DNA of 64,000 nucleotides from Chelativorans salis (lineage in GTDB: Bacteria > Pseudomonadota > Alphaproteobacteria > Rhizobiales > Rhizobiaceae), in NCBI RefSeq assembly GCF_025336525.1, contig NZ_JAOCZP010000009.1:62001-126000 (forward strand). The letters are read 5' to 3'. The position numbers and the translations under genes were made by a program. The notes beneath the pieces were generated by a model that did not search any database, was not told the origin of the DNA, and saw only the letters and a program-made list of their open reading frames with translations. Positions 5,491 through 57,555 of this stretch are shown here, one piece after another. Position 1 is the first letter of the stretch, and each line of letters begins with the position of its first letter.

Positions 5491-6330
5491 CTATTTCAGG
5501 AGCGCCAGGTCGAAGCGGTCGACATCGGCAAGGAGTTCGAGAACGCCGGATACGGCGTGATCGAGGATCTTCTCGCCGGCCTCTGCCGTGGCGGTGGCCG
5601 CGTTGCCGACCGCGCCCTTCGAAGAGAGATCGCGCATCATCCAGCCGAAGGCGTGTGGGCCGTAGGCGCGCAGGTGGGTGAAGTCGCGCTGGAAGCGGGC
5701 CTGCGCGGAAGGGAAGCCCGCCGCCTTCTCCATCGCCACGAGGTCAGGCCTGAGCGCCAGCATGACTGAGGTTTCGATGAAGCCGCCATGGATGCCCAGC
5801 GCCCGCTCCTCCTCCGAAACGAGGCCGGACGGGTAGCCGAAACGCGTCCAGCTTGTGGCGACCGCCAGCATGCGGCGGCGTGAACGAAGCTCGGTGGCCA
5901 CGACCGTCATCAGCGGAGAATTGCCGCCATGGGCGTTGAGCATGACGAATTTGGGTATTCCCGCTTGGGCAAGGTCCTCACCAATACCGATCCAGCGCCG
6001 CACGGCCTCCTCGAAGCCGAGCGAGACGGTGCGCGGATCGTCCGCATGTTCGATGGAGTAGCCGACTTTCTCCACCGGCAGGATGTCTATCGGCAGGCCG
6101 CCCGCCCGCGCCTCGACACGGGCGGCGACCGCCTTGGCGATCATCCAGTCTGTCTCCGGCGGAAGGTGCGGCCCGTGCTGCTCGGTCGCACCCAGCGGCA
6201 GGACGGCTATTCTTTCACGCTTGGGCAGAGCGCATCTCCCTCTGTCATAAGATTGATATGCCAGTTTGGCATTAGCCCGGAAACGATTTGGCGAGTGGAC
6301 CAAAGTACCGCGCCCCGTGCGATGCGACAA
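5491..6330 (-). CDS. Creatininase family protein
   Basis: A metal-dependent amidohydrolase of the creatininase/FAPy-deformylase family. The metal-binding motifs are clear: [27 protein letters not shown] and [10 protein letters not shown]. The predicted length of 279 residues includes about 38 residues before the first motif that do not resemble the usual N-terminus, which has a Trp-containing helix. In another frame just upstream, MPNWHINLM reads with a Trp at the right place and stops within codons of the conserved core, so the start may lie downstream of 6330 or the 5' end may carry a frameshift. Substrate unknown: creatinine, riboflavin precursors, lactams and mycofactocin peptide are all seen in this family. 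Confidence 0.8.
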
Positions 6331-40435: not shown

Positions 40436-40687
40436 TCAGTCAGGCTGCCTGCCGAGGCGACGCTCGTATCCAGATCGATGCCGGACCAGCTCATTGGAGT
40501 CGGCTTGCCGAACAAGGCGAAGCTGGCAGTGCGGACAGAGCTGACAGCTTCGGGAAAACAGAATTTCCCCAGGCCCTGATGTGATGACGATGGCCACGTT
40601 CCGATGCTCGTCGATCTTGCGAAGCGTTCGTTCGTCGCCGCATCCATCGCAGCGCCAAACCTGTTTCGCCTTGTTTTCCCCCGCCAT
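40436..40687 (-). CDS. Small zinc-ribbon-like protein
   Basis: An 83-residue frame with two cysteine knuckles, WRCDGCGDE near residue 13 and SCQLCPHCQL near residue 49, about 30 residues apart, the pattern of a zinc ribbon. AGGAA lies 5-6 bases before the ATG. It sits 14 bases upstream of the RTX-like remnant on the same strand. I do not recognise a family. The C-terminal 30 residues look compositionally random, so the frame may be partly decayed. Confidence 0.4.
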   Translation of the reverse strand: MAGENKAKQVWRCDGCGDERTLRKIDEHRNVAIVITSGPGEILFSRSCQLCPHCQLRLVRQADSNELVRHRSGYERRLGRQPD

Positions 40688-40887
40688 TGCTTTCCTACGT
40701 GTCGATCAGTCGCTTCCGGCATTTCGCCGCCTGCGAACTCGGGCACATAGGCTGCAAAGCGCCTCCGGGTTCATGGGCTCGCCCATGCGTGCACTCCGGA
40801 AGCGGATGTAGCCCCCTATCCCTGAATGTAGGGCAGAAACCTTGCGCCCGGCTTACGTCAGGCTGCTCAACGGAAAGCGCGCTTCGT

Positions 40888-41853
40888 CTACAGATGCAGC
40901 TCGATGGCAAGGCCCTTGTCACGGGCGCTGGATGCGGCGACGGAGGCAAGTGCCAGATCCTGCAGGCCGACACCGGTGCCATCGAACAGGGTGATCTCGT
41001 CCGGTGACGAGCGGCCGGGGTGTGCGCCGTTGACGACGGCGCCGAGAGGTGTGATCCGCGCTTCCTCGATCAGGCCGGCCTCCGCCGCGTGCTGGCATTC
41101 GCCAATGCTGACCGCCTGGGTGACTTCATCGGTGAACAGCGTTGCGGCGGCAACGAGTTCGGCGGCAACCTCTTGCTTACCCTTGGTGTCGGTCCCCATG
41201 CAGGCCAAATGCACGCCCGGCCGCACGTGATCACGCGTCAGGATCGGTGCGAAGCTCGAGGTGATGGTGATGACGACGTCGGCCTCCGCCCCCAGCCGCT
41301 CGAGCGTGACCGCCTCGAAGGGCAGGCCGAGCTCCGCCGCGGTTTCCTCCAGCCGCGAGAGCATTTCGGGATGCGGGTTCCAGCCGATCACCTTCTCGAA
41401 CTCCCGCTGCGCCGCCGCCGCCCGCATCTGAAAGGTAGACTGAAAGCCGGCGCCTACCATGCCGAGCACCCTGGCGTCCGGGCGCGCAAGATAGCGGATG
41501 GAGACGGCCGAAGCCGCCGCGGTGCGCATGGCTGTCAGATAGTTGCCGCCGACCATCGCCTGCGGCCGTCCGGTATCGGGATCGAAGAGGAAGACGGTCG
41601 ACTGGTGGTTGGTCAGACCCCGCTTCTCATTGCCCGGCCAATAGCCGCCCGATTTCAGCCCCAGCACACCATGTGCCCGGTCGAAGCCCGACTTGAAACC
41701 GTAGAGCGCGTCGGCATGGCCGATCGCCTCGCGGATAACCGGGAAGTTATATGCCTCGCCGCTGGCCATGGCGGCGAAGACGCCCTCCACGGCCGTAAAG
41801 GCATCCTCGCGCGTGATGAGATTGCGGCAGGTTTCTTCCGTCACGACCAGCAT
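40888..41853 (-). CDS. bhcD: Iminosuccinate reductase BhcD
   Basis: A 321-residue member of the ornithine cyclodeaminase/mu-crystallin family. In the beta-hydroxyaspartate cycle BhcD reduces iminosuccinate to L-aspartate with NAD(P)H, regenerating the amino donor used by BhcA. The Rossmann motif is VLGMVGAGFQSTFQM; VGGNYLTAMRTAAASA is the family's substrate segment. I start at ATG 41853 with GAGG nine bases upstream; the longer frame overlaps bhcC. Last gene of bhcABCD, 10 bases after bhcC. Alone it would be annotated as an ornithine cyclodeaminase; the four-gene context fixes the function. Confidence 0.93.
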   Translation of the reverse strand: MLVVTEETCRNLITREDAFTAVEGVFAAMASGEAYNFPVIREAIGHADALYGFKSGFDRAHGVLGLKSGGYWPGNEKRGLTNHQSTVFLFDPDTGRPQAMVGGNYLTAMRTAAASAVSIRYLARPDARVLGMVGAGFQSTFQMRAAAAQREFEKVIGWNPHPEMLSRLEETAAELGLPFEAVTLERLGAEADVVITITSSFAPILTRDHVRPGVHLACMGTDTKGKQEVAAELVAAATLFTDEVTQAVSIGECQHAAEAGLIEEARITPLGAVVNGAHPGRSSPDEITLFDGTGVGLQDLALASVAASSARDKGLAIELHL

Positions 41854-41863
41854 GGACGGCGCC

Positions 41864-43018
41864 TCAGTAGGCCATGCCGCGCGCGGTGACCGGCCATAGG
41901 CATTCCACCTTGCTGTCGCGGATACCGACATACCAGTCGTAGACGTTGCAGGTGGGGTCGCAATGTCCGGGCACGAGCTTCAGCTTGTTGTTGAGCTTCA
42001 GCACGTTGCCGGGATCGGCGATGACGCCATGCTCGTCGGAGCATTTGATGTATTCGACATCGTCGCGCCCGTAGATGACCGGTAGGCCGGAATCCACGCT
42101 CTGCGCCTTGAGGCCAGCGTCGCAGATCGCCTTGCCGGCCTTGGTCTTGGACATGATTGATGTCCAGATGAACAAGCTATTCTCAAACGCATGAATGAAA
42201 TCGCCGTCCTCGTCCCGCACCCGCTGGTAGTCGGCATCCATGAAGATGTAGGAGCCGCATTGCAGCTCGTTATAGACACCGGACGTGCCCTCGAAATAGT
42301 AGGAGCCGGTGCCGGCGCCGCCGACGATCTTGCACTCCAGGCCTTCCATGTTCAGCATTGCGACGGTGGCAGCGACCTGGGAGATGGCCGCTTCGATCTT
42401 CGCCTTGCGCTCTCCATAGTCATGAACGTGCTGGGCCGCGCCCTGGTAGGCCTGCAGGCCGGAGAATTCCAGCCCCGGGGCCGCAGTGATCTTCCTTGCC
42501 AGATCGATCACCGGCTCGCCCCACTGCACGCCGCAGCGCCCTGCCCCGCAGTCGATCTCGACGAGGCACTCGATCGTCGTGCCGTGCCTTTGGACGGCCT
42601 TGGAGAGGTCGTCGACATTGCCAAGGTCGTCGACGCAAACGAGTGTGCGCGCCCGGCCCGCGAGCTGCGCGAGGCGATCGATCTTGACTGGGTCGACCAC
42701 CTGGTTCGACACCAGCACATCCCGCACGCCACCGGCGACGATCGCCTCTGCTTCCGACACCTTCTGGCAGCACACGCCGACTGCCCCGCCGAGCTCCATC
42801 TGGATAAGCGCGATGTCGGCGGACTTGTGGGTCTTGGCATGCGCCCGATGGCGCACGCCCATCTCTTCGGCAAAGCGGCGCATGCGCTTCACATTGCGCT
42901 CGAAGGCGTCGAGGTCGATGATCAGCGCCGGCGTCTGCACCTCCTCCAGGCTCATGCCGACGGCGGCCGGAACATTCAGGCCGACGACGGGCGTGGCGGT
43001 CTTGTTGAGGGCGTTCAT
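41864..43018 (-). CDS. bhcC: beta-Hydroxyaspartate aldolase BhcC
   Basis: A 384-residue PLP enzyme of the D-threonine aldolase/alanine racemase fold III group. In the cycle it condenses glycine and glyoxylate to (2R,3S)-beta-hydroxyaspartate. The PLP lysine is in RAHAKTHKSADIA; VLVSNQVVDP, LVEIDCGAGRCGV and LQAYQGAAQHVHD are family motifs; the C-terminal metal site includes GHCDPTCN with His and Cys. ATG 43018 is preceded by AAGGAGGAA. It is 31 bases from bhcB and should be co-transcribed from the bhcA promoter. Confidence 0.94.
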   Translation of the reverse strand: MNALNKTATPVVGLNVPAAVGMSLEEVQTPALIIDLDAFERNVKRMRRFAEEMGVRHRAHAKTHKSADIALIQMELGGAVGVCCQKVSEAEAIVAGGVRDVLVSNQVVDPVKIDRLAQLAGRARTLVCVDDLGNVDDLSKAVQRHGTTIECLVEIDCGAGRCGVQWGEPVIDLARKITAAPGLEFSGLQAYQGAAQHVHDYGERKAKIEAAISQVAATVAMLNMEGLECKIVGGAGTGSYYFEGTSGVYNELQCGSYIFMDADYQRVRDEDGDFIHAFENSLFIWTSIMSKTKAGKAICDAGLKAQSVDSGLPVIYGRDDVEYIKCSDEHGVIADPGNVLKLNNKLKLVPGHCDPTCNVYDWYVGIRDSKVECLWPVTARGMAY

Positions 43019-43049
43019 GGTGTTCCTCCTTGTCCTTCAGGCACCACTT

Positions 43050-44003
43050 TCAGGCCGCCATCCAGGGCAGCTTAACCAAGTCGACATTGCCGCCGGTGAG
43101 AATGACACCGACGCGCTTGCCGGCAAAATTGTGCTTGTTCTTCAGGATCGCCGCCAGAGGGACGGCGCTCGATGGTTCCACAACGATCTTCATGCGCTGC
43201 CAGATAAGCCGCATCGCCTCGACGATCTCGTCCTCGGTGGAGAGGAGGATGTCTTCCACGTGGCCGGAGACGAAGTGCCAGGTTAGCTCCTTGAGCGGCA
43301 CCTTCAGCCCGTCCGCCACCGTCTGCGGTGCGTCATCGGCAATGATGTGCCCTGCCTTGAGGGAACGATGGGCATCGTTGGCGTTCTTCGGCTCGGCCGC
43401 ATAGATCTTCGTTTGCGGGGCAATGGCCGACAGGGTCAGGCAGCAGCCCGATATCATCCCGCCACCGCCGATGGGGACAATGACGGCATCGAGCGGCCCC
43501 AGTTCCTCGACGATTTCCTTCGCGCAAGTGGCCTGGCCGGCAATCACGCGGGGGTCGTTATACGGGTGCACGAATTCAGCGCCGGTCTCAGCCACCACTT
43601 CGGCGAACACGGCCTCGCGCGAGGATGTGCTTGGCTCGCATTCGATGATCCTGCCGCCATAACCTTGCACGGCTGCCTTCTTGGGCTCCGGTGCCGTTTT
43701 CGGCATGACCACGGTGACCGGAATTCCACGCTTGCCGGCGGCGTAGCTGAGCGACAGCGCGTGGTTTCCCGATGAATGGGTGGCAACGCCCACCGCGGCC
43801 TTCTCCTCATCCAGGCCAAAGACCGCGTTGGAGGCGCCGCGCGCCTTGAAGGCGCCGGCCTTCTGGAAGTTCTCGCACTTGAAGAACAGGCTGGCTCCGG
43901 TGAGGCTGTCGAGGAAGCTGCTGGTGAGGATCGGCGTGCGGTGGACATGCGGCGCGATGCGCGCATGCGCGGATATGACATCGTCGTAGGTGGGAATTTC
44001 CAT
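43050..44003 (-). CDS. bhcB: beta-Hydroxyaspartate dehydratase BhcB
   Basis: A 317-residue fold-type II PLP enzyme resembling threonine dehydratase and serine racemase. In the cycle it removes water from beta-hydroxyaspartate to give iminosuccinate. The PLP lysine lies in KAGAFKARGA, the phosphate loop is IGGGGMISG and SSGNHALSLSYA binds the substrate carboxylate. There is no regulatory ACT domain, unlike biosynthetic IlvA. Located between bhcA (15 bases) and bhcC. Confidence 0.93.
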   Translation of the reverse strand: MEIPTYDDVISAHARIAPHVHRTPILTSSFLDSLTGASLFFKCENFQKAGAFKARGASNAVFGLDEEKAAVGVATHSSGNHALSLSYAAGKRGIPVTVVMPKTAPEPKKAAVQGYGGRIIECEPSTSSREAVFAEVVAETGAEFVHPYNDPRVIAGQATCAKEIVEELGPLDAVIVPIGGGGMISGCCLTLSAIAPQTKIYAAEPKNANDAHRSLKAGHIIADDAPQTVADGLKVPLKELTWHFVSGHVEDILLSTEDEIVEAMRLIWQRMKIVVEPSSAVPLAAILKNKHNFAGKRVGVILTGGNVDLVKLPWMAA

Positions 44004-44018
44004 CCGCTTCGGCTCCCT

Positions 44019-45221
44019 TCAAGCTGCGGCGGAGACGGCCGAGGCGTCGTCCTCAGTCTGGCCGGCCCGATAGAACTCCTGCGCGGCGCGTACGCCGGAG
44101 CCGAGTGCGATCGGCAGGCCCAGATCGGCCATGACCATTTCGGCGGTTGCTATACCGGAGAGCGCCATGACATCCGTCATGCTGCCCAGATGGCCGATGC
44201 GAAATACCTTGCCCGCCACCTCGCCGAGGCCGACGCCGAAGGCGACCCCGTATTTTTCGGCGGCGTGGGTGACGATCCTGGTGGCGTCGAAGCCCGCAGG
44301 CACGGTGACGGCGCTCACCGTGTCGGAGTAAAGGGAGGGCTCCCTTGCGCACAGGGAGAGGCCCCACGTGTCGACCGCTTTGCGGACGCCTTCGGCGATC
44401 CTGTGGTGGCGGCTGAAGACGCGGGGCAGCCCCTCCTCCTCCAGCATTGCAATCGACTGGCTCAGACCGCGAATGAGATTGACGGGCGGTGTGTAGGGAA
44501 AGCCGCCGGCGGAAGCGCTTTCCAACATATCACGGAAATCGAAGAAGCAGCGAGGGCATCGTGCCGAGGCCATTGCCTCCATTGCCTTCGGGCTGGCGCC
44601 GAGGATGGCGAGGCCCGCCGGCAGCATGAAGCCCTTTTGCGAGCCGGTGATGGCGATATCAATGCCCCACTCGTCCATGCGGAAATCCATGGATGCGATG
44701 GAGCTGACACCGTCGACATAGAGAAGGGCGGGATGCTTCGCGGTATCGATGGCGCGTCGGACGGCGGCTATGTCGCTCACGACGCCGGTGGCTGTCTCGT
44801 TGTGGCAGACGAGCACCGCCTTGATCCGGTGCTCTTTATCAGCCTTCAGCGCACGGTTGAATTCCGCGGCTGGCGCACCGGCGCCCCACGGCGTCTCGAT
44901 AACCTGGACATCGAGGCCGTGCCGCTTGCACAGGTCGATCCAGCGGTGCGAGAACATGCCGTAGCGCGCCGCGAGAACCTTGTCGCCTGGAGAGAGCGTG
45001 TTTGTGATCGCCGCCTCCCAGGCGCCTGTGCCGGTGGCGGGGAAGAGAATGATCTCCGCGTCCTTCGACTGAAGGATGCGCCGTACACCCTCAAGCGCCG
45101 GCTTGTACATCTCGGCGAAAGCGGGCGAGCGGTGGTCTATCGAGGGATAGTCCACAGCGCGGCGGAGCCTCTCGGGGATGTTTGTGGGCCCCGGAACGAA
45201 GATCGGATTTTGGGTGGACAT
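44019..45221 (-). CDS. bhcA: Aspartate-glyoxylate aminotransferase BhcA
   Basis: A 400-residue class V aminotransferase. In the cycle it transfers the amino group of L-aspartate to glyoxylate, giving glycine and oxaloacetate. FVPGPTNIPERLRRAV and IDHRSPAFAEM mark the N-terminus, FPATGTGAWEAAITNTLSPGD is the PLP phosphate region, and the PLP lysine is in GSQKGFMLPAG. The C-terminal GKVFRIGHLGSMTDVMALSG is shared with Paracoccus BhcA and serine-glyoxylate aminotransferases. First gene of the operon, divergent from bhcR across a 229-base AT-rich gap with palindromes. Confidence 0.95.
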   Translation of the reverse strand: MSTQNPIFVPGPTNIPERLRRAVDYPSIDHRSPAFAEMYKPALEGVRRILQSKDAEIILFPATGTGAWEAAITNTLSPGDKVLAARYGMFSHRWIDLCKRHGLDVQVIETPWGAGAPAAEFNRALKADKEHRIKAVLVCHNETATGVVSDIAAVRRAIDTAKHPALLYVDGVSSIASMDFRMDEWGIDIAITGSQKGFMLPAGLAILGASPKAMEAMASARCPRCFFDFRDMLESASAGGFPYTPPVNLIRGLSQSIAMLEEEGLPRVFSRHHRIAEGVRKAVDTWGLSLCAREPSLYSDTVSAVTVPAGFDATRIVTHAAEKYGVAFGVGLGEVAGKVFRIGHLGSMTDVMALSGIATAEMVMADLGLPIALGSGVRAAQEFYRAGQTEDDASAVSAAA

Positions 45222-45306
45222 CGGCTTTATCTCCGAAACCTGGCCGCGAGCGGCGGTGTTTTCAGCAGACAGATTAAGGCTGGCACTGACGCGAAGGCAA
45301 TTTTTT

Positions 45307-45321
45307 TGAAAAATATTTTCA
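45307..45321. promoter_or_regulatory. Palindrome between bhcA and bhcR (likely BhcR operator)
   Basis: TGAAAA-ATA-TTTTCA is a perfect 15-base palindrome. It is nested with a wider pair, TTGAAAAA (45306-45313) and TTTTTCAA (45323-45330). IclR-family sites are often AT-rich palindromes of this size. It lies 85 bases before the bhcA start and about 130 before bhcR. BhcR is known to bind this intergenic region in Paracoccus and to be released by glyoxylate. Confidence 0.7.
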
Positions 45322-45450
45322 CTTTTTCAATATCTCGATTAATGGATTGTTTTGTTTGCCTCTTATCTTTTTTCATCCTGCGAAAATCATTTCTGAAATC
45401 TTGACGCCGCGGCGCGGGCGCGTACTCTGCGCGGCAACTGGGAGAAAACC

Positions 45451-46275
45451 ATGCCGCCCCATATCAGCCGCGCCCGTGGAAGGCCGCGCTCGTTCAACGA
45501 CACGTCGAAAAATACGCTCATCCAATCGCTGGAGCGCGCCATGGACGTGCTCAAGGTGGTGGCGAAGGGCCGTGGGATGTCGCTGACGGAGATCGCCGAG
45601 GCGGCCGACCAGTCGGCGTCGACGGCATACAGAATCCTGATCACGCTGGAGAAACATGGCATCGTCCAGTTCGATGAACCGGCGCAGCTCTGGCAGGTGG
45701 GACTGGAGGCCTTCCGCATCGGCAGCAGCTTCCTCGGCCGCACGCACGTTGTCGAGCAAAGCCGGCCGGTGATGCAGCGGATCATGACGGCAACGGGGGA
45801 GACCGCCAATCTGGCCATCGTCGACCAAGGCGAGGTGATTTTCGTCAGCCAGGTCGAAACGCATGAGCCGATCCGCGCCTTCTTCCGGCCCGGCACGCGC
45901 GGCCCGATCCATGCCTCAGGCATCGGCAAGGCGCTGCTCGCCTTCTTTCCCGAGGCGCAGATTGAAGCCGTTCTCAAGAAGCGGGCGCTCACCGCCTTCA
46001 CGGAAAAGACGATCACCTCGAAAGAGGCGCTCCTTGCGGAACTGGAGCGCATCCGCGCCCGTGGCTGGTCGATCGACGACGAAGAGCGCACACCCGGCAT
46101 GCGCTGCATCGCTGCGCCGATCTTCAACCAGTTCGGCGAGGCGACGGCCGGCGTCTCGCTGTCCGGCCCATCGGTGCGTGTCACGCCTGAGCGCGACGCC
46201 GAATACGGTACCCTCGTGCGCAAGGCGGCGGACGAGATCACCCGGGCCATCGGTGGGAGCGGACCGAAGCCCTAG
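45451..46275 (+). CDS. bhcR: IclR family regulator BhcR
   Basis: A 274-residue IclR-type regulator. The N-terminal winged helix has SLTEIAEAADQSASTAYRILITLEKHGIVQ (about residues 43-72). The effector domain has the FFRPGTRGPIHASGIGKALLAFF and GMRCIAAPIFNQFGEATAGVSLSGP motifs that line the ligand pocket. Divergent from bhcA, the arrangement seen in known beta-hydroxyaspartate cycle clusters, where BhcR responds to glyoxylate. Ends 17 bases from the convergent purine permease gene. Confidence 0.93.
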   Translation: MPPHISRARGRPRSFNDTSKNTLIQSLERAMDVLKVVAKGRGMSLTEIAEAADQSASTAYRILITLEKHGIVQFDEPAQLWQVGLEAFRIGSSFLGRTHVVEQSRPVMQRIMTATGETANLAIVDQGEVIFVSQVETHEPIRAFFRPGTRGPIHASGIGKALLAFFPEAQIEAVLKKRALTAFTEKTITSKEALLAELERIRARGWSIDDEERTPGMRCIAAPIFNQFGEATAGVSLSGPSVRVTPERDAEYGTLVRKAADEITRAIGGSGPKP

Positions 46276-46292
46276 CATATCCGGCCTCCACT

Positions 46293-47585
46293 CTATTCGG
46301 AGAGGAAAGTGAACCGCAGGACGAACAGCGCAGCGACGCTCCAGGTTGCCGGGTGCACGGCGCGCGGGCGCCCAGCGAGGGTGTTGATCACTGCATAGCT
46401 GACAAAGCCGAAGGCCAGACCGTTGGCAATCGAATAAGTGAACGGCATCATCATCGCCGTCAGCGCGGCCGGCACCGCCTCGGCCGTCTCTTCCCACTCG
46501 ATCTCGACCAGTTCACGCATCATCAGGGCGGCGACGTAAAGAAGCGCCGGCGCCGTCGCATAGGCGGGCACCGAGCCGGCAAGCGGCGAAAACATCAGGG
46601 CGGCAAGGAACAGAACCGCGATAACCAGCGCCGTGAGCCCAGTACGGCCACCCGCCTGGACACCTGAAGCGCTTTCGGCATAGGCCGTCGTGCTGCTCGT
46701 TCCAAGGAGCGAACCGGCGACGATTGCCGTGCTGTCGGCCATCAGGGCGCGGCCCAGGCGGTTGGGCCGGTCGGGCTTCATGAGCCCGGCGCGCTTGGCC
46801 ACGCCGATCAGCGTGCCCGTGGCGTCGAAAACCTCGACCAGGACGAACACGAGAATGACATGCAGGAGCCCGGCGGAGAGCGCACCCCAGATGTCGAGTT
46901 GCATGAAGGTGGGCAGGATGCTTGGCGGAGCCGACACCACGCCCTGGAACTCGTTGAGGCCCAGCAGCATCGACAGGACGGTGACCGCCAGAATGCCGAT
47001 GAGGATGGCGCCGCGAACGTTGAGAGCGTCCAGCCCGGCGATGATGAAGAAGCCGAGAATGGCAAGCATCGGGCCGGTCTGGGAGAGATCGCCGAGGGTG
47101 ACGAAGGTGGCCTCGGAGGCGACGACAATGCCGGAACTCTTGAGCGCGATGATGGCCAGGAACAGCCCGATGCCGGCGACAATGGCACAGCGCATGGAGT
47201 GTGGAATACCCGAGATAAGCCACCGTCGCACGCCCGTCACCGTCAGGATCAGGAAGATGATGCCGGAAACGAAAACCGCCCCCAGCGCCTGCTGCCAGGT
47301 GAACCCCATGGCGCCGACCACGGTGAAGGCGAAGAAGGCGTTGAGTCCCATCCCCGGCGCCATGCCGATCGGCCATTTTGCAAACAGCGCCATGACGAGG
47401 GTGCCGAGCGCCGCGGCGAGGCAGGTCGCCACGAAGACGGCGCCGCGATCCATCCCCGTCGTGGAAAGGATCGCCGGATTGACGAAGATGATGTAGGCCA
47501 TCGTCAGGAACGTGGTGACGCCGGCGATCACCTCGGTGCGTACCGACGTGCCGTGGGCCCGCAGATCAAAGAGCTTTTCGAACAT
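46293..47585 (-). CDS. NCS2/AzgA-type purine permease
   Basis: A 430-residue membrane protein with 12-14 hydrophobic segments, of the AzgA/PbuG/GhxP branch that carries hypoxanthine, guanine or adenine. Signatures: TFLTMAYIIFVNPAIL, IGMAPGMGLNAFFAFTVV with the conserved Asn, VFVLVEVFDATGTLIG and GTSSTTAYAESASGVQAGGRTGLTAL, the substrate-site helix. ATG 47585 has GGGAGGAG in front; an earlier GTG at 47597 would place the Shine-Dalgarno inside the gene. No purine riboswitch was recognised upstream. Confidence 0.92.
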   Translation of the reverse strand: MFEKLFDLRAHGTSVRTEVIAGVTTFLTMAYIIFVNPAILSTTGMDRGAVFVATCLAAALGTLVMALFAKWPIGMAPGMGLNAFFAFTVVGAMGFTWQQALGAVFVSGIIFLILTVTGVRRWLISGIPHSMRCAIVAGIGLFLAIIALKSSGIVVASEATFVTLGDLSQTGPMLAILGFFIIAGLDALNVRGAILIGILAVTVLSMLLGLNEFQGVVSAPPSILPTFMQLDIWGALSAGLLHVILVFVLVEVFDATGTLIGVAKRAGLMKPDRPNRLGRALMADSTAIVAGSLLGTSSTTAYAESASGVQAGGRTGLTALVIAVLFLAALMFSPLAGSVPAYATAPALLYVAALMMRELVEIEWEETAEAVPAALTAMMMPFTYSIANGLAFGFVSYAVINTLAGRPRAVHPATWSVAALFVLRFTFLSE

Positions 47586-47927
47586 TTCTCCTCCCACCTG
47601 CGTTCGGCGAACCGGCTGCAGCGTTTGCGTTGGTGAATAGGCCTGCCTGTCAACCGCAGAGCGGAACGCCGCTCCTTAGGCGCCTCACCTTTCCAACGGC
47701 GTCGGTATCCTCATCTCCCGAAGCCGTATGAGCGACACCACGGACGGCCTCCGGGCATCGACGCGCCGGACAGACCATCCAAGGTTGCCAGCAGCAGGAG
47801 GCTAAAGCCGTCCGCGCAAACGACAAGAACGTGGAGGTGGAAGGAGTTTCAAAAAAAGATGGTGAGAGGCGGAGAGGAAGCCTTTGTGGCTGCACGGAGA
47901 TGCCCCGCCCCTTCGCTTTCGCGAAGA
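47586..47927. other. Intergenic stretch without a recognised gene
   Basis: About 340 bases between the purine permease and the epimerase gene, both on the minus strand. Weak overlapping frames have no family features or good starts. No riboswitch-like conserved core or clear terminator is seen. It should contain the permease promoter. Confidence 0.4.
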
Positions 47928-51657: not shown

Positions 51658-52716
51658 TTATTGTCCTGCTCCTCCCCCGGGATGCGGACCGCTGCTCGGC
51701 GCTCCAACGGATTCCCGCACCAATAGCTGGCATCGTTCGAGCCGCGCCGTCGGCGGCCCGGTCTCGCCGTCTATGCGACGAAAAAGCATATCCATAGCCT
51801 GGGCGGCGATCTGGTCCACCGGCTGCACGACGGCAGCGATGGTCGGCCACGTGACCGACATCCATTCCGCATCGTCGAAGCCGACCAGCGAGATGTCATC
51901 CGGGCAGTGCCAGCCGCGGCGGCGGAATTCGCTGAGGGCGACGAGGGTCCCCTTGAGAAAGAGGGAAAAAACCGCAGTCGGCCGCTCGCCGCGCGAGAAG
52001 TAATCACGGATGGAGGCGCGCAGCGGCTCCACGTCGCTCTCGCACAGGATCACGTCGATCTGCACCTTCGGGTCGAGCGCCTCTGCCGTCCTGCGGAACC
52101 CTTCGAGGCGCGCCCGCACGCACGCCCCCTGCTCTCCGAGACCCACCACCAGCACATGGCGGTGGCCGCGCCCGATGAGCTCGCGCGCAACTTCCGCGCT
52201 CGCCGACATGCTGTCGGCCGAAACCGTGTCGAAGGATTCGTCGGAGAGGACCCGGTCGATCATCACGCCGGTCATCCCGTGCGCCTGCATCAATTCGCCG
52301 CCCCGGCCATGCTCGTCGCGCACGGGGGCCAGCACGACACCGGCCACGCGCCAATCCTGCATGCGCCTCAGGATTTCCGCTTCGCGCTCTTCCGACTCGC
52401 CGCTCGACGCCGCCACCAGCGTATAGCCGCGCAGTTCCGCAAGACGCTCCAGATGCGTCACCATGGAGCCGAAGAACTCGCTTTCGAATTCCGGCAGGAT
52501 CGCCCCGATGATGCGGCGCTTGGCACGCCTGAGGTCGGAGGCAAGCGGGTCCGCCCGGTAGCCGAGCCGCTCCACCGCCTCGAAAACGCGCTGTACGTTC
52601 TCCGGCTTCACTGTCGAGACGCCGTGCATGACCTTAGAGACGGTCGCCGCCGACACGCCCGCATGGTTCGCCACGTCGTGGATCGACGGCCGCTTGTGCA
52701 CGGCACCGCTGGACAA
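51658..52716 (-). CDS. LacI family regulator of the ribose-type sugar operon
   Basis: A 352-residue LacI-type repressor. The helix-turn-helix SIHDVANHAGVSAATVSKVMHG is followed by a hinge around DPLASDLRRAKRR. The effector domain contains VGFDDAEWMSVTWPTIAAV, the usual C-terminal signature. I choose a TTG start at 52716, with GGAGG five bases upstream; no ATG fits before the helix-turn-helix, and the frame itself runs to 52890. It is upstream of the binding-protein gene on the same strand and divergent from the 2-hydroxyacid dehydrogenase gene, with palindromes in the gap. Confidence 0.87.
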   Translation of the reverse strand: MSSGAVHKRPSIHDVANHAGVSAATVSKVMHGVSTVKPENVQRVFEAVERLGYRADPLASDLRRAKRRIIGAILPEFESEFFGSMVTHLERLAELRGYTLVAASSGESEEREAEILRRMQDWRVAGVVLAPVRDEHGRGGELMQAHGMTGVMIDRVLSDESFDTVSADSMSASAEVARELIGRGHRHVLVVGLGEQGACVRARLEGFRRTAEALDPKVQIDVILCESDVEPLRASIRDYFSRGERPTAVFSLFLKGTLVALSEFRRRGWHCPDDISLVGFDDAEWMSVTWPTIAAVVQPVDQIAAQAMDMLFRRIDGETGPPTARLERCQLLVRESVGAPSSGPHPGGGAGQ

Positions 52717-52758
52717 ACGCTCCTCCCAAAGCTTGCTTCCAAGCCAAAAACTATTGAT

Positions 52759-52790
52759 AAATCGATTTTTCAATGCTGTAAATCGTTTCA
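52759..52790. promoter_or_regulatory. LacI-type operator pair between lacI and dehydrogenase genes
   Basis: AAATCGATTT (52759-52768) is a perfect palindrome, and TGTAAATCGTTTCA (52777-52790) is a near-palindrome with the same AAATCG half and a central CG. Both lie in the AT-rich gap between the divergent genes. They are likely sites for the adjacent LacI regulator, controlling both directions. Confidence 0.55.
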
Positions 52791-52840
52791 TCGCGGAAAG
52801 AACGCCTGATATGGCTCGCGGATCGCGCAGGGAGGAAATT

Positions 52841-53872
52841 ATGGGCGAAGCACCACGGCCGCTGGTCATCAGCGCGCCGGAACCGCGCACGCTGGACCTG
52901 ATCTTTACACCTGAGGCCCGACGCCGGCTGCATGAGGACTATGATATCCGGGAGATCGAGGCCGCGCAGCTGCACCGCCTCGATGAGGAGGTGCTTGGCG
53001 CCGCACGCTACATCATCGGGCAACCGCCGATCCCGCCGGAAACGCTCGACCGGATGACAAGCCTGCGTTGTGTCTTCAATGTCGAGACGAATCTCATCAA
53101 CAACATGCCATACGAGACGCTCTTCGAGCGCGGCATCCACGTGGTGACCACCGGGGCTGTGTTTGCCGAGCCGGTGGCAGAGATGGGGCTGGCGCTGGCG
53201 CTCAATCTCGCCCGCGGCGTCGTCGACGCGGATATCGCCTTCCGCCAGGGCCGCGAATTGTGGGGCGGCGACGGCAACGCGTCGGCACGCCTCGTCTCGG
53301 GCTCCGAGATCGGCATCGTCGGCTTCGGCGATCTCGGCCGCGCGCTCAACCGCGTGCTTGCCGGCTTTCGCGCCAGGGTCCGTGTTTTCGACCCGTGGCT
53401 GCCGCCCTCCAGCCTGCGCGAAGCGGGCGTGGAGCCGGCCTCGCTCGACACCGTTCTTTCTGAAAGCGACTTCGTCTTCGTCGTCGCGGCCGTGACGAGC
53501 GAGAACCGCGGCTTCCTCGGCGCCGAGGCCTTTCAGAAGATGCGGCCCGGTGCCGCGTTCATCCTACTGAGCCGGGCCGACGTGGTGGACTTCGACGTCT
53601 TGATGGAGGCGGTGCGGCGCGGCCATATCGTGGCGGCAAGCGATGTCTTCCCCGAAGAGCCCCTGCCCACCGATCATTCCGTACGCTCCCTCGACGGCTT
53701 CCTGCGCTCCGCGCACCGCGCCGGCGCCCTCGACATCGTCTTCAAGCGCATGGGCGACATGGTGCTTGAAGACATGACGCTGATGGACCGCGGACTGCCG
53801 CCGATGCGCTGCAAGCGCGCCGAGCGCGAGACGGTTTCGCGCATGCGCTCCAAGCCCGTCGAGAGGAACTGA
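52841..53872 (+). CDS. D-isomer-specific 2-hydroxyacid dehydrogenase family protein
   Basis: A 343-residue NAD(P)-dependent dehydrogenase. The dinucleotide motif is IGIVGFGDLGRAL; TTGAVFAEPVAEMGLALALNLAR is the conserved stretch before it. The catalytic Arg is in LLSRADVVD, the Glu in VFPEEPLP, and the His in RSAHRAGA. ATG 52841 is backed by GGGAGGAAA. An earlier in-frame extension would overlap the divergent lacI gene and is rejected. It probably oxidises or reduces a sugar-derived acid in the pathway fed by the neighbouring sugar transporter. Confidence 0.88.
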   Translation: MGEAPRPLVISAPEPRTLDLIFTPEARRRLHEDYDIREIEAAQLHRLDEEVLGAARYIIGQPPIPPETLDRMTSLRCVFNVETNLINNMPYETLFERGIHVVTTGAVFAEPVAEMGLALALNLARGVVDADIAFRQGRELWGGDGNASARLVSGSEIGIVGFGDLGRALNRVLAGFRARVRVFDPWLPPSSLREAGVEPASLDTVLSESDFVFVVAAVTSENRGFLGAEAFQKMRPGAAFILLSRADVVDFDVLMEAVRRGHIVAASDVFPEEPLPTDHSVRSLDGFLRSAHRAGALDIVFKRMGDMVLEDMTLMDRGLPPMRCKRAERETVSRMRSKPVERN

Positions 53873-53967
53873 ACGGCGAGCCGGCCAGCATCAGTGGCAT
53901 TCCGACACGCAACGCCGGCACGACGGTGGCTTACGTTCGGCTTCGGGCGCGTGATAAGACGAGTTTC

Positions 53968-55077
53968 ATGAGCGAAGCGTATTCAACTGATATCGTCGTT
54001 ATCGGAGCGGGGATCGCCGGGGCGGGCATCGCCGCCGCGCTCACGTCAGAGCATGAGGTCCTCCTTCTCGAGCAGGAAGACCAACCGGGCTACCACTCGA
54101 CCGGACGCTCGGCGGCAATCTTCGTTCAGAACTACGGCAACGATGTCATACGGGTGCTGAGCCGCGCCAGCGCACCGCTCTTTGCCGACGCGGACGCAGC
54201 GCTTTTTCCGGCGCCGCTTCTGAAGCGGCGCGGCATCCTCTTCGTGACCGACGGGGCGGGACGCGCCGAGCACGAGCACCTCCTGGGAACGGCGGCCGGG
54301 CTAGAGGAGATAACGGCGGATGAGGCAGTTGCCCGCGTGCCGCTCCTGAAGCGCGAATGGATCGCCGCGGCGGCCTATGAGGCCGATGCCATGGATATCG
54401 ATGTCGCAGCCCTGCACCAGGGCTGGCTGAAGGGCGCGAAACGGGCCGGTGCAAGGCTCCTCACCGGTGCCGCGCTGCGCAAAGGCACGCATTCGCGCGG
54501 CGGATGGACGCTCGAAACTGCCGTCGGAGAGGTCACTGCACGTGTCGTCGTCAACGCGGCTGGCGCCTGGGCCGACCATGTGGCGGCCGCCTGCGGCGTC
54601 GCCCCGTTGGGACTGGTGCCCATGCGGCGCTCGATGGCCGTACTGCCGGCGCCCGAGGGGTTCGACATCCGCGACTGGCCATTGGTCGCCGAGACGGCCG
54701 ACAACTGGTACTTCAAGCCTGACGGAGGGCGCCTGCTGGTGTCACCTTCCGACGAGGATCCGGTCGAGCCGCACGATGCGTTCGTCGACGACATGGTGCT
54801 GGCGGAGGGGCTTTATCGCTACGAACAGGCGGTGAGGAGCCCGGTTACGCGGATTGAATCGAGCTGGGCCGGGTTGCGCACCTTCGCACCGGACCGCACA
54901 CCGGTGGTCGGCTTCGACGCCGGGGCCGAAGGCTTCTTCTGGCTTGCCGGGCAAGGCGGCTATGGCATGCAGACCGCGCCGGCGCTTTCGCGGCTCGCCG
55001 CCGGCCTCGTCAGCGGTGACACACCACACGACCTTGCCGCGGTCGCCGCGGCCATGTCGCCATCCCGCCTGCGCTAA
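53968..55077 (+). CDS. FAD-dependent oxidoreductase, D-arginine dehydrogenase-like
   Basis: A 369-residue DAO-family flavoprotein. The FAD motif is VVIGAGIAGAGIA, and the sequence tracks the Pseudomonas D-arginine dehydrogenase DauA along its length: DQPGYHSTGRSAA, DIDVAALHQGWLKGA, VVNAAGAWADHVA, WYFKPDGGRLLVSPSDEDPVEPHD, SSWAGLRTFAPDRTPVVGF and LAGQGGYGMQTAPAL. The product would oxidise a D-amino acid (or related amine) to the 2-oxoacid. ATG 53968 is the start nearest the FAD motif. The next operon encodes a ThDP enzyme that could use a 2-oxoacid, but the link is inference. Confidence 0.87.
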   Translation: MSEAYSTDIVVIGAGIAGAGIAAALTSEHEVLLLEQEDQPGYHSTGRSAAIFVQNYGNDVIRVLSRASAPLFADADAALFPAPLLKRRGILFVTDGAGRAEHEHLLGTAAGLEEITADEAVARVPLLKREWIAAAAYEADAMDIDVAALHQGWLKGAKRAGARLLTGAALRKGTHSRGGWTLETAVGEVTARVVVNAAGAWADHVAAACGVAPLGLVPMRRSMAVLPAPEGFDIRDWPLVAETADNWYFKPDGGRLLVSPSDEDPVEPHDAFVDDMVLAEGLYRYEQAVRSPVTRIESSWAGLRTFAPDRTPVVGFDAGAEGFFWLAGQGGYGMQTAPALSRLAAGLVSGDTPHDLAAVAAAMSPSRLR

Positions 55078-55222
55078 CCCGTCGCCCCAGCCCTTCCAGG
55101 AAGACGGGTGCCAACGGCGTCCCAGTTCAGCCACTGTCGTGAAGGCTGGCGCGTTCGCCAGCACCTTGGCAACCAGCGACGGAACTCCACCGGACTTACC
55201 GATCTGCATCGCATCCAGAGCG

Positions 55223-55238
55223 ATCAAACTGGTTTGAT
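55223..55238. promoter_or_regulatory. Palindrome ATCAAAC-TG-GTTTGAT upstream of marR
   Basis: Perfect 7-base arms with a 2-base centre, 11 bases before the -35 of the marR promoter. This is the usual size and position for a MarR operator. It probably gives autoregulated control of the MarR-ThDP-TRAP transcript. Confidence 0.7.
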
Positions 55239-55249
55239 ACAAAACTACA

Positions 55250-55278
55250 TTGATGAATCTCGGCCTTTGCCATATAGT
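55250..55278 (+). promoter_or_regulatory. Promoter of the marR-ThDP-TRAP operon
   Basis: TTGATG (55250-55255) and TATAGT (55273-55278) are exactly 17 bases apart, one of the best sigma-70-type matches in the window. The marR ATG lies 71 bases after the -10. Confidence 0.7.
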
Positions 55279-55349
55279 TCTCGTCGAGGCGCGGTTAGCC
55301 GTGAGGAGGCGCGCGGTGGAGACCTTCCCCGCGCGAAGTATCGGGAGCG

Positions 55350-55832
55350 ATGGACAAGACGGACATTTCCAAAGCCCAGACCCGGGTGAAGGATGACGCC
55401 GAGCCGGTGCTGCTGGGCGAGCTGGAAAACTATGTCGGCTTTCATCTGCGGTTGGCGCAGAGCGCTTCCTTCAAGGCCTTCCGGCGGCTTACGGGCGAGA
55501 GCAGCCTGCGGCCCGGCTGGTTCGCGGTACTCGCCATCATTCACCACAATCCGGGTATCACACCAATGGCGCTCAGCCGCGCCAGCGGTCGTGACAAATC
55601 AACGATCACGCCGGTGCTGAGAGAGCTGCTGCACGAAGAACTCGTCCGGCGCAGCACGAACCCTGCGGACAAGCGCAGCTATGCGCTGTTTCTAACGCCG
55701 GCCGGCGAGGAGAAGCTGGCGCATCTAGCGGCCTGTGCGGCTGAGCACGACCGGGAACTGGACGAGATCGTCGGCGACAAGAAACAGGAGATGATCCGGC
55801 TTCTGCGCCGGATCGTCGCCGTACTGGATTGA
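55350..55832 (+). CDS. MarR family regulator of the ThDP/TRAP operon
   Basis: A 160-residue winged-helix regulator: ALSRASGRDKSTITPVLRELLHEELVRR is the recognition region (about residues 74-100) and NPADKRSYALFLTPAGEEKL is the wing. First gene of the operon, 10 bases before the ThDP enzyme gene. A palindromic operator and a strong promoter lie upstream. The ligand is likely the transported substrate or a product of the ThDP enzyme. Confidence 0.88.
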   Translation: MDKTDISKAQTRVKDDAEPVLLGELENYVGFHLRLAQSASFKAFRRLTGESSLRPGWFAVLAIIHHNPGITPMALSRASGRDKSTITPVLRELLHEELVRRSTNPADKRSYALFLTPAGEEKLAHLAACAAEHDRELDEIVGDKKQEMIRLLRRIVAVLD

Positions 55833-55842
55833 GGATGGCAAG

Positions 55843-57555
55843 ATGTACACGGCCAGCACAGCATTTCTCGAAGCGCTGAGTGAAGCAGGCGTCAGCCACA
55901 TCTTTGCGAATTTCGGCAGCGACCACCCTGCCCTCATCGAGGCAATCGCCGAGGCACGTGCAGAGGGACGGAAGGTGCCGATGATCATCACCTGCCCGAA
56001 CGAGATGGTCGGCATGAGCGCCGCACACGGCTTTGCGCAGGTCTCCGGTCAGGCGCAGGCAGTGCTCGTGCACGTGGAGTGCGGCACCCAGGCGCTGGCC
56101 GGCGCTGTCCACAACGCGGCCAAGGGGCGGGTGCCCATGCTCGTCTTCGCCGGCGCCTCGCCCTTCACCCAGGAAGGCGAATTGAAGGGTAGCCGCAACG
56201 AGTTCATCCAGTGGATCCAGGACGTACACGACCAGCGCGGCATCGTGCGCGGCTACATGAAATACGACAACGAGATCAGGACCGGCAGGAACGTCAAGCA
56301 GCTCGTGCACAGGGCCCTACAGATCGCCAGCTCTGACCCCCGGGGCCCGGCCTATCTCATGGGTGCGCGCGAGGTGATGGAGGAGACGCTTTCCTCGCCC
56401 GTCGAAATCGATCCCGATGCGTGGCGTCCACTCGCCCCTTCCCCGCTCCCCGACGAGGCTGTGGAGACGCTGCTGACGGCATTGGAGGGGGCAGAACGTC
56501 CGCTCGTCGTCACCTCCTATCTGGGACGCAATCCGAAGGCGGCGGAGCAACTTGTCCTGTTGTGCGAGGCGTTGGGCGTCGGCGTGCTGGAATCGGTACC
56601 GAACGCGATGAACTTCCCGCACGACAATCCCCTTTACCAGGGCAACCAGTGGAACGAACCGCACCAGAACGCTACCCTCGCCGAAGCCGACTGCGTCCTG
56701 GTGATCGACAGCGACGTGCCGTGGATCCCGACCGTCAGCCGCCCGCGCGAAGGGGTGCCGATCTTCCACATCGATGTCGACCCGCTGAAGGAGAACATGC
56801 CTTTGTGGTACATCGGTGCGCGGGCGAGCTTTCGCGCCCACGCCGAGACGGCGCTGCGTCAACTCAATACCGCCCTGGCACGCCGCAAGCCGGACCAGGC
56901 GCGGGTGCATGCCCGTTCCGAGCACTACCGGCGCACCAGCCGCGAGCGCGTAAAGGCGCTGGATGCGCTTGAGAAGGCCGACGGCGCCATCACACCGGAA
57001 TTCCTGACCGCTTGTGTGCGCCGCCATATCGATGACGACACCATCGTGCTCAACGAGGGCATCACCAACTATCCGACGATCTTCAATCACCTGGCCATGC
57101 GCCGGCCCGGCTCGATCTTCACGGCCGGAGGCGGCTCGCTCGGCTGGAGCGGCGGGGCGGCGATCGGCGCCAAGCTCGCCGCGCCCAACAAGACGGTGGT
57201 CTCGCTGACGGGCGACGGCTCCTATATGTTTTCGGTACCGTCCAGCGTTCACTGGATCGCCGCAAATTACAAAACGCCGTTCCTGCAGATCGTTTACAAC
57301 AACCGCGGCTGGAAGGCGCCGCGCTTTTCCACGCTCGCCGTCCATCCGGACGGTTACGCGAGCCGCGCCAACGACATCGACGTCGCCTTCGATCCGCCGC
57401 CGGATTACGCCGGCATCGCCGCCGCCGCCGGGGCAGGCTATGCGCGCAAGGTGGAAGGGCCAGAAGAGGTGGAGGAGGCGGTGGGGGAAGCTTTCGAGAC
57501 TGTGCGCAAGGGGGAGAGCGCGGCGGTGCTCGACGTCTGGCTTCCACATTTGTGA
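55843..57555 (+). CDS. Thiamine-diphosphate-dependent enzyme (acetolactate synthase-like)
   Basis: A 570-residue ThDP enzyme with the three domains of the acetolactate synthase/2-oxoacid decarboxylase family. The N-terminal Pyr domain has the activating Glu in CPNEMVGMSAAHGFA; the middle domain has VIDSDVPWIP and FHIDVDPLKENMP; the C-terminal PP domain has the cofactor motif GDGSYMFSVPSS through YNNRGW. It is not a housekeeping IlvB, since no small subunit and no other valine-pathway gene is near. It sits between a MarR regulator and a TRAP transporter, so it probably decarboxylates or carboligates an imported acid. The substrate is unknown. Confidence 0.88.
   Translation: MYTASTAFLEALSEAGVSHIFANFGSDHPALIEAIAEARAEGRKVPMIITCPNEMVGMSAAHGFAQVSGQAQAVLVHVECGTQALAGAVHNAAKGRVPMLVFAGASPFTQEGELKGSRNEFIQWIQDVHDQRGIVRGYMKYDNEIRTGRNVKQLVHRALQIASSDPRGPAYLMGAREVMEETLSSPVEIDPDAWRPLAPSPLPDEAVETLLTALEGAERPLVVTSYLGRNPKAAEQLVLLCEALGVGVLESVPNAMNFPHDNPLYQGNQWNEPHQNATLAEADCVLVIDSDVPWIPTVSRPREGVPIFHIDVDPLKENMPLWYIGARASFRAHAETALRQLNTALARRKPDQARVHARSEHYRRTSRERVKALDALEKADGAITPEFLTACVRRHIDDDTIVLNEGITNYPTIFNHLAMRRPGSIFTAGGGSLGWSGGAAIGAKLAAPNKTVVSLTGDGSYMFSVPSSVHWIAANYKTPFLQIVYNNRGWKAPRFSTLAVHPDGYASRANDIDVAFDPPPDYAGIAAAAGAGYARKVEGPEEVEEAVGEAFETVRKGESAAVLDVWLPHL

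Follow-up and report, generated by a model that had tools for sequence, protein, structure and literature searches.

The window analysed here, a stretch of 64,000 nucleotides (contig positions 62001-126000) from the 5.66 Mb genome of Chelativorans salis, carries four adjacent enzyme genes, bhcDCBA, together with the divergent regulator gene bhcR. These genes belong to the beta-hydroxyaspartate cycle, which has been described in Paracoccus denitrificans. The features of the locus, in window positions, are as follows.

40888..41853, minus strand: bhcD, iminosuccinate reductase (NF045643, PDB 6rqa), with the probable start at Met27 of the open reading frame 40888-41931
41864..43018, minus strand: bhcC, 3-hydroxy-D-aspartate aldolase, form II (NF045642, PDB 6qkb)
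43050..44003, minus strand: bhcB, beta-hydroxyaspartate dehydratase (NF045641)
44019..45221, minus strand: bhcA, L-aspartate--glyoxylate aminotransferase (NF045640)
45298..45320, minus strand: candidate BhcR operator GAAA-N5-TTTC-AAAAAAATTG, 76 bases upstream of the bhcA start
45451..46275, plus strand: bhcR, IclR-family regulator, divergent from bhcA (NF045644)
46293..47597, minus strand: permease of Pfam family PF00860 (xanthine/uracil permease family), tail to tail with bhcR, a possible supplier of a glyoxylate precursor

Three of the enzymes and the regulator exceeded the curated cut-offs of dedicated NCBIfam models, namely BhcA (728.5 bits, cut-off 650; generic alternative 183.8), BhcB (596.5, cut-off 550; generic alternative 370.3), BhcD (588.7, cut-off 500; generic alternative 197.6), and BhcR (411.1, cut-off 350). 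The best PDB match of BhcD is 6rqa, an iminosuccinate reductase (463 bits, against 151 for the next relative), and that of BhcC is the D-3-hydroxyaspartate aldolase 6qkb (521 bits, followed by a D-threonine aldolase at 385), while the best structures for BhcA, BhcB, and BhcR are other members of their broad families. The initial annotation placed all five reading frames correctly, with bhcDCBA on the minus strand and bhcR divergent on the plus strand, and its broad families (ornithine cyclodeaminase, D-threonine aldolase, threonine dehydratase-like, and class V aminotransferase) agree with the PDB searches. Its identification of the set with the Paracoccus cycle is borne out by genes, order, divergent regulator, and the four of five proteins above equivalog cut-offs, but it was mistaken in supposing that single-gene annotation would leave only four generic names, as NCBIfam holds dedicated Bhc models and only BhcC lies just below its cut-off. 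The true start of bhcD is probably at 41853, ten bases past the bhcC stop codon, whereas the longer reading frame (to 41931) would overlap bhcC by 68 bases. No structured RNA was detected downstream of bhcD (fold z-score 0.77).

The pairwise alignment to Paracoccus proteins that the initial annotation had proposed as a check gave identities to P. denitrificans (L142, NZ_CP141053) of 71.9% for BhcA, 71.0% for BhcB, 60.4% for BhcC, 67.8% for BhcD, and 48.8% for BhcR. The two loci share the four enzymes, their order, the divergent bhcR, and the same promoter element, which lies 52 bases upstream of bhcA in P. denitrificans; they differ in the form of BhcC (form I in P. denitrificans) and in the nearby purine-related gene, which is an 8-oxoguanine deaminase homologue there and the PF00860 permease in the window. 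The order is as in P. denitrificans in all 27 complete clusters compared, with bhcR alongside in 25 of them, and a chance arrangement is excluded by the recurrence of the same set in the same order in many other genomes. The closest loci are those of Chelativorans alearense (L006, genome G002) and Chelativorans xinjiangense (L007, genome G015), whose Bhc proteins are 91-96% identical to those of the window and whose arrangement, including the permease, an ABC transporter, and LacI neighbours, showed no notable difference. With BhcA, BhcB, and BhcD above cut-off, bhcC within the operon, the order bhcABCD, and the divergent bhcR, the locus is a correctly recognised instance of a known system, to which the window adds one ordinary member.

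The beta-hydroxyaspartate cycle was reportedly defined in a Nature paper of 2019, and its enzymes are assigned step by step in agreement with the NCBIfam names. Accordingly named, BhcA would convert glyoxylate to glycine by transamination with aspartate as the amino donor, BhcC would condense glycine with a second glyoxylate to beta-hydroxyaspartate, BhcB would remove water to give iminosuccinate, and BhcD would reduce iminosuccinate to the aspartate that supplies BhcA and thereby releases oxaloacetate, so that two glyoxylate would yield one oxaloacetate. BhcR would sense glyoxylate and act at the 23-bp element upstream of bhcA. Glyoxylate would be supplied from glycolate via GlcDEF and further, we think, from purine breakdown via ureidoglycolate. 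For P. denitrificans, the net reaction of the cycle and the role of BhcR as an activator are given in a published study (PMC11323563). We are highly confident that the locus encodes a working beta-hydroxyaspartate cycle in an operon with its own local regulator; we infer that in C. salis itself the enzymes act as in P. denitrificans, that BhcR binds the element, and which substrates feed the cycle. Growth on glycolate or glyoxylate by this route, as the initial annotation proposed, would follow.

Several observations weigh against this prediction. BhcC scored 674.1 bits, 16 under the curated NF045642 cut-off of 690, and thus falls outside that equivalog (score >690); it also differs from the Paracoccus type next to the putative pyridoxal phosphate lysine. 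BhcC homologues outside bhc clusters equal or exceed Paracoccus BhcC (60%) in identity to it, that of L020 reaching 76%, so its function has to be read from the operon context. As to the supply, the purine pathway is near-universal in the genus (PuuE and ureidoglycolate lyase each over cut-off in 15 of 16 genomes) but bhcA is present in 8 of 16, and purine use therefore needs no bhc genes. On the other side, NF045642 is the sole NCBIfam family matched by BhcC, over its full length (1-387 of 387), and the gene lies between bhcB and bhcD. We read the sub-threshold score as that of a variant, form II, measured by a cut-off that favours form I, rather than as lost function. Going by the broad families named by the initial annotation and the low BhcC score, the genes could also be taken for threonine dehydratase, D-threonine aldolase, ornithine cyclodeaminase, and serine aminotransferase, serving biosynthesis or amino-acid catabolism and unconnected with glyoxylate, but this is extremely improbable, given that BhcA, BhcB, and BhcD are far better matched by Bhc models than by generic ones, BhcR is over its cut-off, and gene order is conserved in the clusters that were compared.

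The two forms of BhcC were compared in the 27 complete clusters, of which 10 have form I and 17 form II. The forms are told apart consistently by six positions, and two of these lie on either side of Lys62, the putative pyridoxal phosphate lysine; Ala61, Thr63, Ala195, and Gln265 of form II correspond to Gly, Met, Met, and Gly in form I. This split fits the sub-cut-off score of the window BhcC, whose nearest named relatives are those of C. alearense and C. xinjiangense (94% identity). Similar letters (AKS) at the lysine site of the D-threonine aldolase 7dib, together with these substitutions, could mean that form II is a D-threonine-aldolase-like enzyme of other specificity, which would give this organism a weaker cycle than that of Paracoccus or one with a broader substrate range. 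We consider this quite unlikely, since form II occurs in 17 of the 27 complete clusters and is also present in the near relatives L008 and L009, so that it looks ancestral here. BhcC homologues 61-76% identical to the window protein were also observed in L020, L044-L046, and L048-L050, mostly rhizobia, with no other bhc gene found within at most 10 kb on each side.

The bhcC gene appears to have been exchanged singly. Across the 27 complete clusters, the BhcA, BhcB, and BhcD trees group the window with C. alearense, C. xinjiangense, and three congeners, G005, G009, and G014 (loci L136, L135, and L137), with support of 86, 94, and 98, of which 98 alone is starred. The BhcC tree separates these six, and forcing them together costs 222 log-likelihood units (approximately unbiased test, p = 2.4e-5); the p-value comes from a non-blind test, as the group was named after the identities had been seen, and the trees are of a quick kind, although the likelihood gap is large. 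In the three congeners, bhcA, bhcB, bhcD, and bhcR are in the same order as in the window and their proteins are 75-88% identical to it, whereas their BhcC is of the Paracoccus type, with 80-84% identity to P. denitrificans and 66.5-67.6% to the window, indicating a swap of bhcC within the operon. In 150-base bins, DNA identity between the window and these congeners is 57-79% in bhcC, 79-88% in most of bhcB, and 73-86% in most of bhcD. Because L008 and L009 share the form of the window, the simplest account would be that the three congeners acquired form I bhcC and that form II was retained in the window.

BhcR of the window is an IclR-family protein above its NCBIfam cut-off with glyoxylate-binding residues present. 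All five residues listed in PMC11323563 as contacting the oxygens of glyoxylate or pyruvate are the same as in P. denitrificans, and in the hydrophobic patch from the same source positions 146 and 220 agree and 143 and 154 differ (2/4). As a BhcR, it would also bind the bhcA promoter, with glyoxylate loosening the contact, and activate bhc. The bhcA-bhcR intergenic region could be excised for 62 of the 70 loci retained in the survey described below. GAAA-N5-TTTC occurs 47 times in 39 of these 62 regions, where base shuffling expects 0.24; the N4 spacing occurs 19 times in 17 regions (0.42 expected), and spacings of 1-3 and 6-8 at most three times. In 60 of the 62 regions, the extended 23-bp element outscores every one of 1240 base-shuffled sequences (it is lacking in L172 and L051), lying mostly 50-60 bases upstream of bhcA.

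Since these intergenic sequences had also served to train the weight matrix, a search of the genus is the better test. The degenerate element was found in 7 of the 16 genus genomes, all among the eight bhcA carriers and each at the bhcA promoter, with one off-target site (G009); the eighth carrier, G014, has the element with one mismatch, and none was found in the eight genomes without bhcA. This genome has a single degenerate-pattern site, at bhcA, and the window has one site when up to three mismatches are allowed (0 in 100 shuffles). The element was found neither in 780 kb of control DNA nor in the gammaproteobacterial variant loci described below. From this distribution, the 23-bp element is very likely the BhcR operator. 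In P. denitrificans, a palindromic candidate site is reported to lie upstream of the bhcA -35 region (PMC11323563). A sigma-70 scan of 40500-47800 returned three sites, all weak and on the plus strand, and the bhcA promoter was not among them. A wider BhcR regulon was considered and set aside, as no degenerate-pattern site lies in the glcDEF or purine-gene stretches with zero mismatches allowed, a setting that weaker sites would escape. Within the genus the element is nearly confined to bhc and can serve as a sequence tag for control by BhcR.

The initial annotation named glycolate and glyoxylate as growth substrates. Homologues of glcD, glcE, and glcF are indeed encoded elsewhere in the genome, which makes the glycolate route complete on paper: a GlcD homologue is present in all 16 genus genomes (536-552 bits, all under the cut-off of 567.9; 546 in this genome), and GlcE (290, cut-off 284) and GlcF (483.5, cut-off 333) follow it here, outside the bhc locus. 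Glycolate oxidation is therefore probably possible, but glycolate is not the sole possible source, as a PF00860 permease adjoins bhcR and purine genes are the commonest recognisable neighbours in relatives. Malate synthase G is over cut-off in all 16 genomes and glyoxylate carboligase in none (best 369.3 against a cut-off of 711.2; 363.5 in this genome), which gives no sign of a competing glycerate pathway; so, among the glyoxylate routes searched for, malate synthase alone remains beside the bhc cycle. The genus name prompted a look at ethylenediaminetetraacetate (EDTA) as a glyoxylate source, which was rejected here as this genome lacks any match to TIGR03860, the EDTA/nitrilotriacetate monooxygenase family; that family is over cut-off in 6 of the 16 genus genomes. 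bhcA is over cut-off in 8 of 16 genomes of the genus, 36 of 297 in the family, and 15 of 385 in the class sample, this genome included.

The permease beside bhcR and two annotated plasmids prompted a survey of neighbouring genes. The starting list comprised 88 loci carrying bhcA or part of a cluster; removal of nine without A, B, and C together and of nine duplicates left 70 loci with stretches of 5-22 kb. Of these 70, 26 had at least one purine-related gene, 20 had a catabolic enzyme, and 15 had at least two such genes; five had glycolate oxidase glcE/F, none had both kinds, and 39 had neither. Among 39 random 20-kb stretches from genomes of the same set, one carried a purine gene (a permease), and none was found in 44 control loci that carry a BhcC homologue but neither bhcA nor bhcB, several of them short and three of them with a bhcD-like gene. 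The excess over control is significant for any purine gene (Fisher p = 2.0e-5) but not for glycolate oxidase (p = 0.16). With the five discovery loci removed, the counts are 21 of 65 for any gene (p = 1.5e-4), 18 for an enzyme, and 14 for two or more (p = 8.8e-4).

A reference-free check, in which all neighbour proteins were clustered and families in at least five loci were retained (bhc and, by eye, antisense frames excluded), returned allantoicase (12 loci, 0 in control), PuuE (12, 0), an ABC ATPase (11, 5), ureidoglycolate lyase (10, 0), LysR (9, 1), and NCS2 (8, 1) at the top, these being named by eye, followed by the family of the window permease (6, 0), PuuD (6, 0), and glcD, E, and F (5, 0). 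On the BhcA tree, the purine-enzyme label needs 14 changes (at least seven forced by starred branches) and the glycolate oxidase label one; counts were the same in an earlier tree, in which L029, L155, and L158 had very long branches, probably from a wrong frame. The 14 changes imply repeated gain or loss of the purine link. The label shows some clustering on the tree, with a count as low in 16 of 500 shuffles, and related loci are not independent. This association of genes suggests that purine breakdown, besides glycolate, may often feed the cycle; it is a genomic association and not proof of flux. No report linking the cycle to purine gene clusters was found, beyond purines being named as a glyoxylate source, in literature mostly outside subscription journals.

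The case of the window itself is weak, with one adjacent candidate. Its permease matched PF00860 with 191.9 bits and no NCBIfam model; we presume it to be AzgA-like, although PF00860 also includes uracil permeases. Such a permease also adjoins bhcR in L006, L007, L178, and the gammaproteobacterium L033, and could possibly supply a glyoxylate precursor. In G005, G009, and G014, no purine-related gene was found within 18 kb, unlike in the window. Just left of the window, the same contig carries the genes for ureidoglycolate lyase and allantoicase with puuE, uraH, and xdhABC (49.5-57.8 kb) and puuD (59.3-60.5 kb); with bhc at 102.9-108.3 kb (contig positions), puuD is about 42 kb and ureidoglycolate lyase about 53 kb away. 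The Leisingera sp. NJS204 plasmid (L147) has a complete bhcRABCD, as in the window, but embedded among modABC, allantoicase, NCS2, ureidoglycolate lyase, puuE, uraH, puuD, and xdhABC. In that locus (6928-30163), the molybdate transporter, purine breakdown genes, and bhcRABCD are adjacent on one plasmid and make up a xanthine-to-oxaloacetate route.

The adjoining permease, the purine pathway on the same contig, the neighbour counts, and the Leisingera island would together agree with purine (ureide) breakdown as the main glyoxylate source in C. salis, and glycolate as a secondary one. We regard this as somewhat doubtful, because the sole adjacent candidate is a permease of putative role, GlcDEF homologues are also encoded, seven of the eight genus genomes without bhcA have both purine markers over cut-off, and the BhcR element is found at bhc only and is absent from the purine-gene stretches. 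Supply by GlcDEF, with purine breakdown as a further source, is the reading preferred here.

Partial loci were also identified. In eight loci from gammaproteobacterial metagenome-assembled genomes (L032, L036, L038, L039, L040, L041, L043, and L047), bhcB and bhcC, with 61-69% identity to the window, converge on the gene of a class V aminotransferase with only 24% identity to BhcA (measured in L041), and in seven of the eight a BhcR-like regulator lies behind the aminotransferase (348 bits in L041, cut-off 350). bhcA and bhcD were not found within these eight loci, BhcA not having been searched genome-wide; BhcD was over cut-off in none of ten genomes, these eight plus L035 and L037, whose contigs end early (best 210 against 500; positive control 571; completeness of the assemblies not stated). 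These loci are possibly a variant of the cycle or a linear route to oxaloacetate. Genome G008, one of the eight bhcA-bearing genus genomes, has a solitary bhcA-bhcR pair (L140, 8892-10088 and beyond) with the promoter element intact, no bhcB, bhcC, or bhcD found in 18 kb, and neighbours that by eye are hydantoinase-subunit-like. In seven class-sample genomes (L154 and L161-L166), BhcA homologues scored 635-713 bits, near or over cut-off, and no bhcB or bhcC was found in the stretches examined.

Elsewhere in the window, we identified a glycerate 2-kinase-like protein (136-1254) and a creatininase-family protein (5491-6330), both below NCBIfam cut-offs, and a run of D-2-hydroxyacid dehydrogenase, flavin adenine dinucleotide oxidoreductase, and thiamine pyrophosphate enzyme (52628-57555), of which only the last is over cut-off (generic NCBIfam model).

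Across the loci compared, a broader picture may be put forward tentatively, at a little under even chances: the cycle may widely serve as the carbon-saving end of purine/ureide catabolism, repeatedly joined to purine genes, and not mainly as a glycolate pathway, with bhcC exchanged singly between two forms and with a gammaproteobacterial bhcBC/BhcR-like variant that lacks BhcA and BhcD. The route would run from purine through urate, allantoin, and ureidoglycolate to glyoxylate and oxaloacetate.

The cycle assimilates glyoxylate without carbon loss, and it is said to have been transferred into Pseudomonas putida and into plants. The second natural form of BhcC, swapped in otherwise similar operons, makes with the first a ready pair for comparative work and for engineering. 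The ecological role of the cycle would widen from algal glycolate to purine recycling if purines often supply it.

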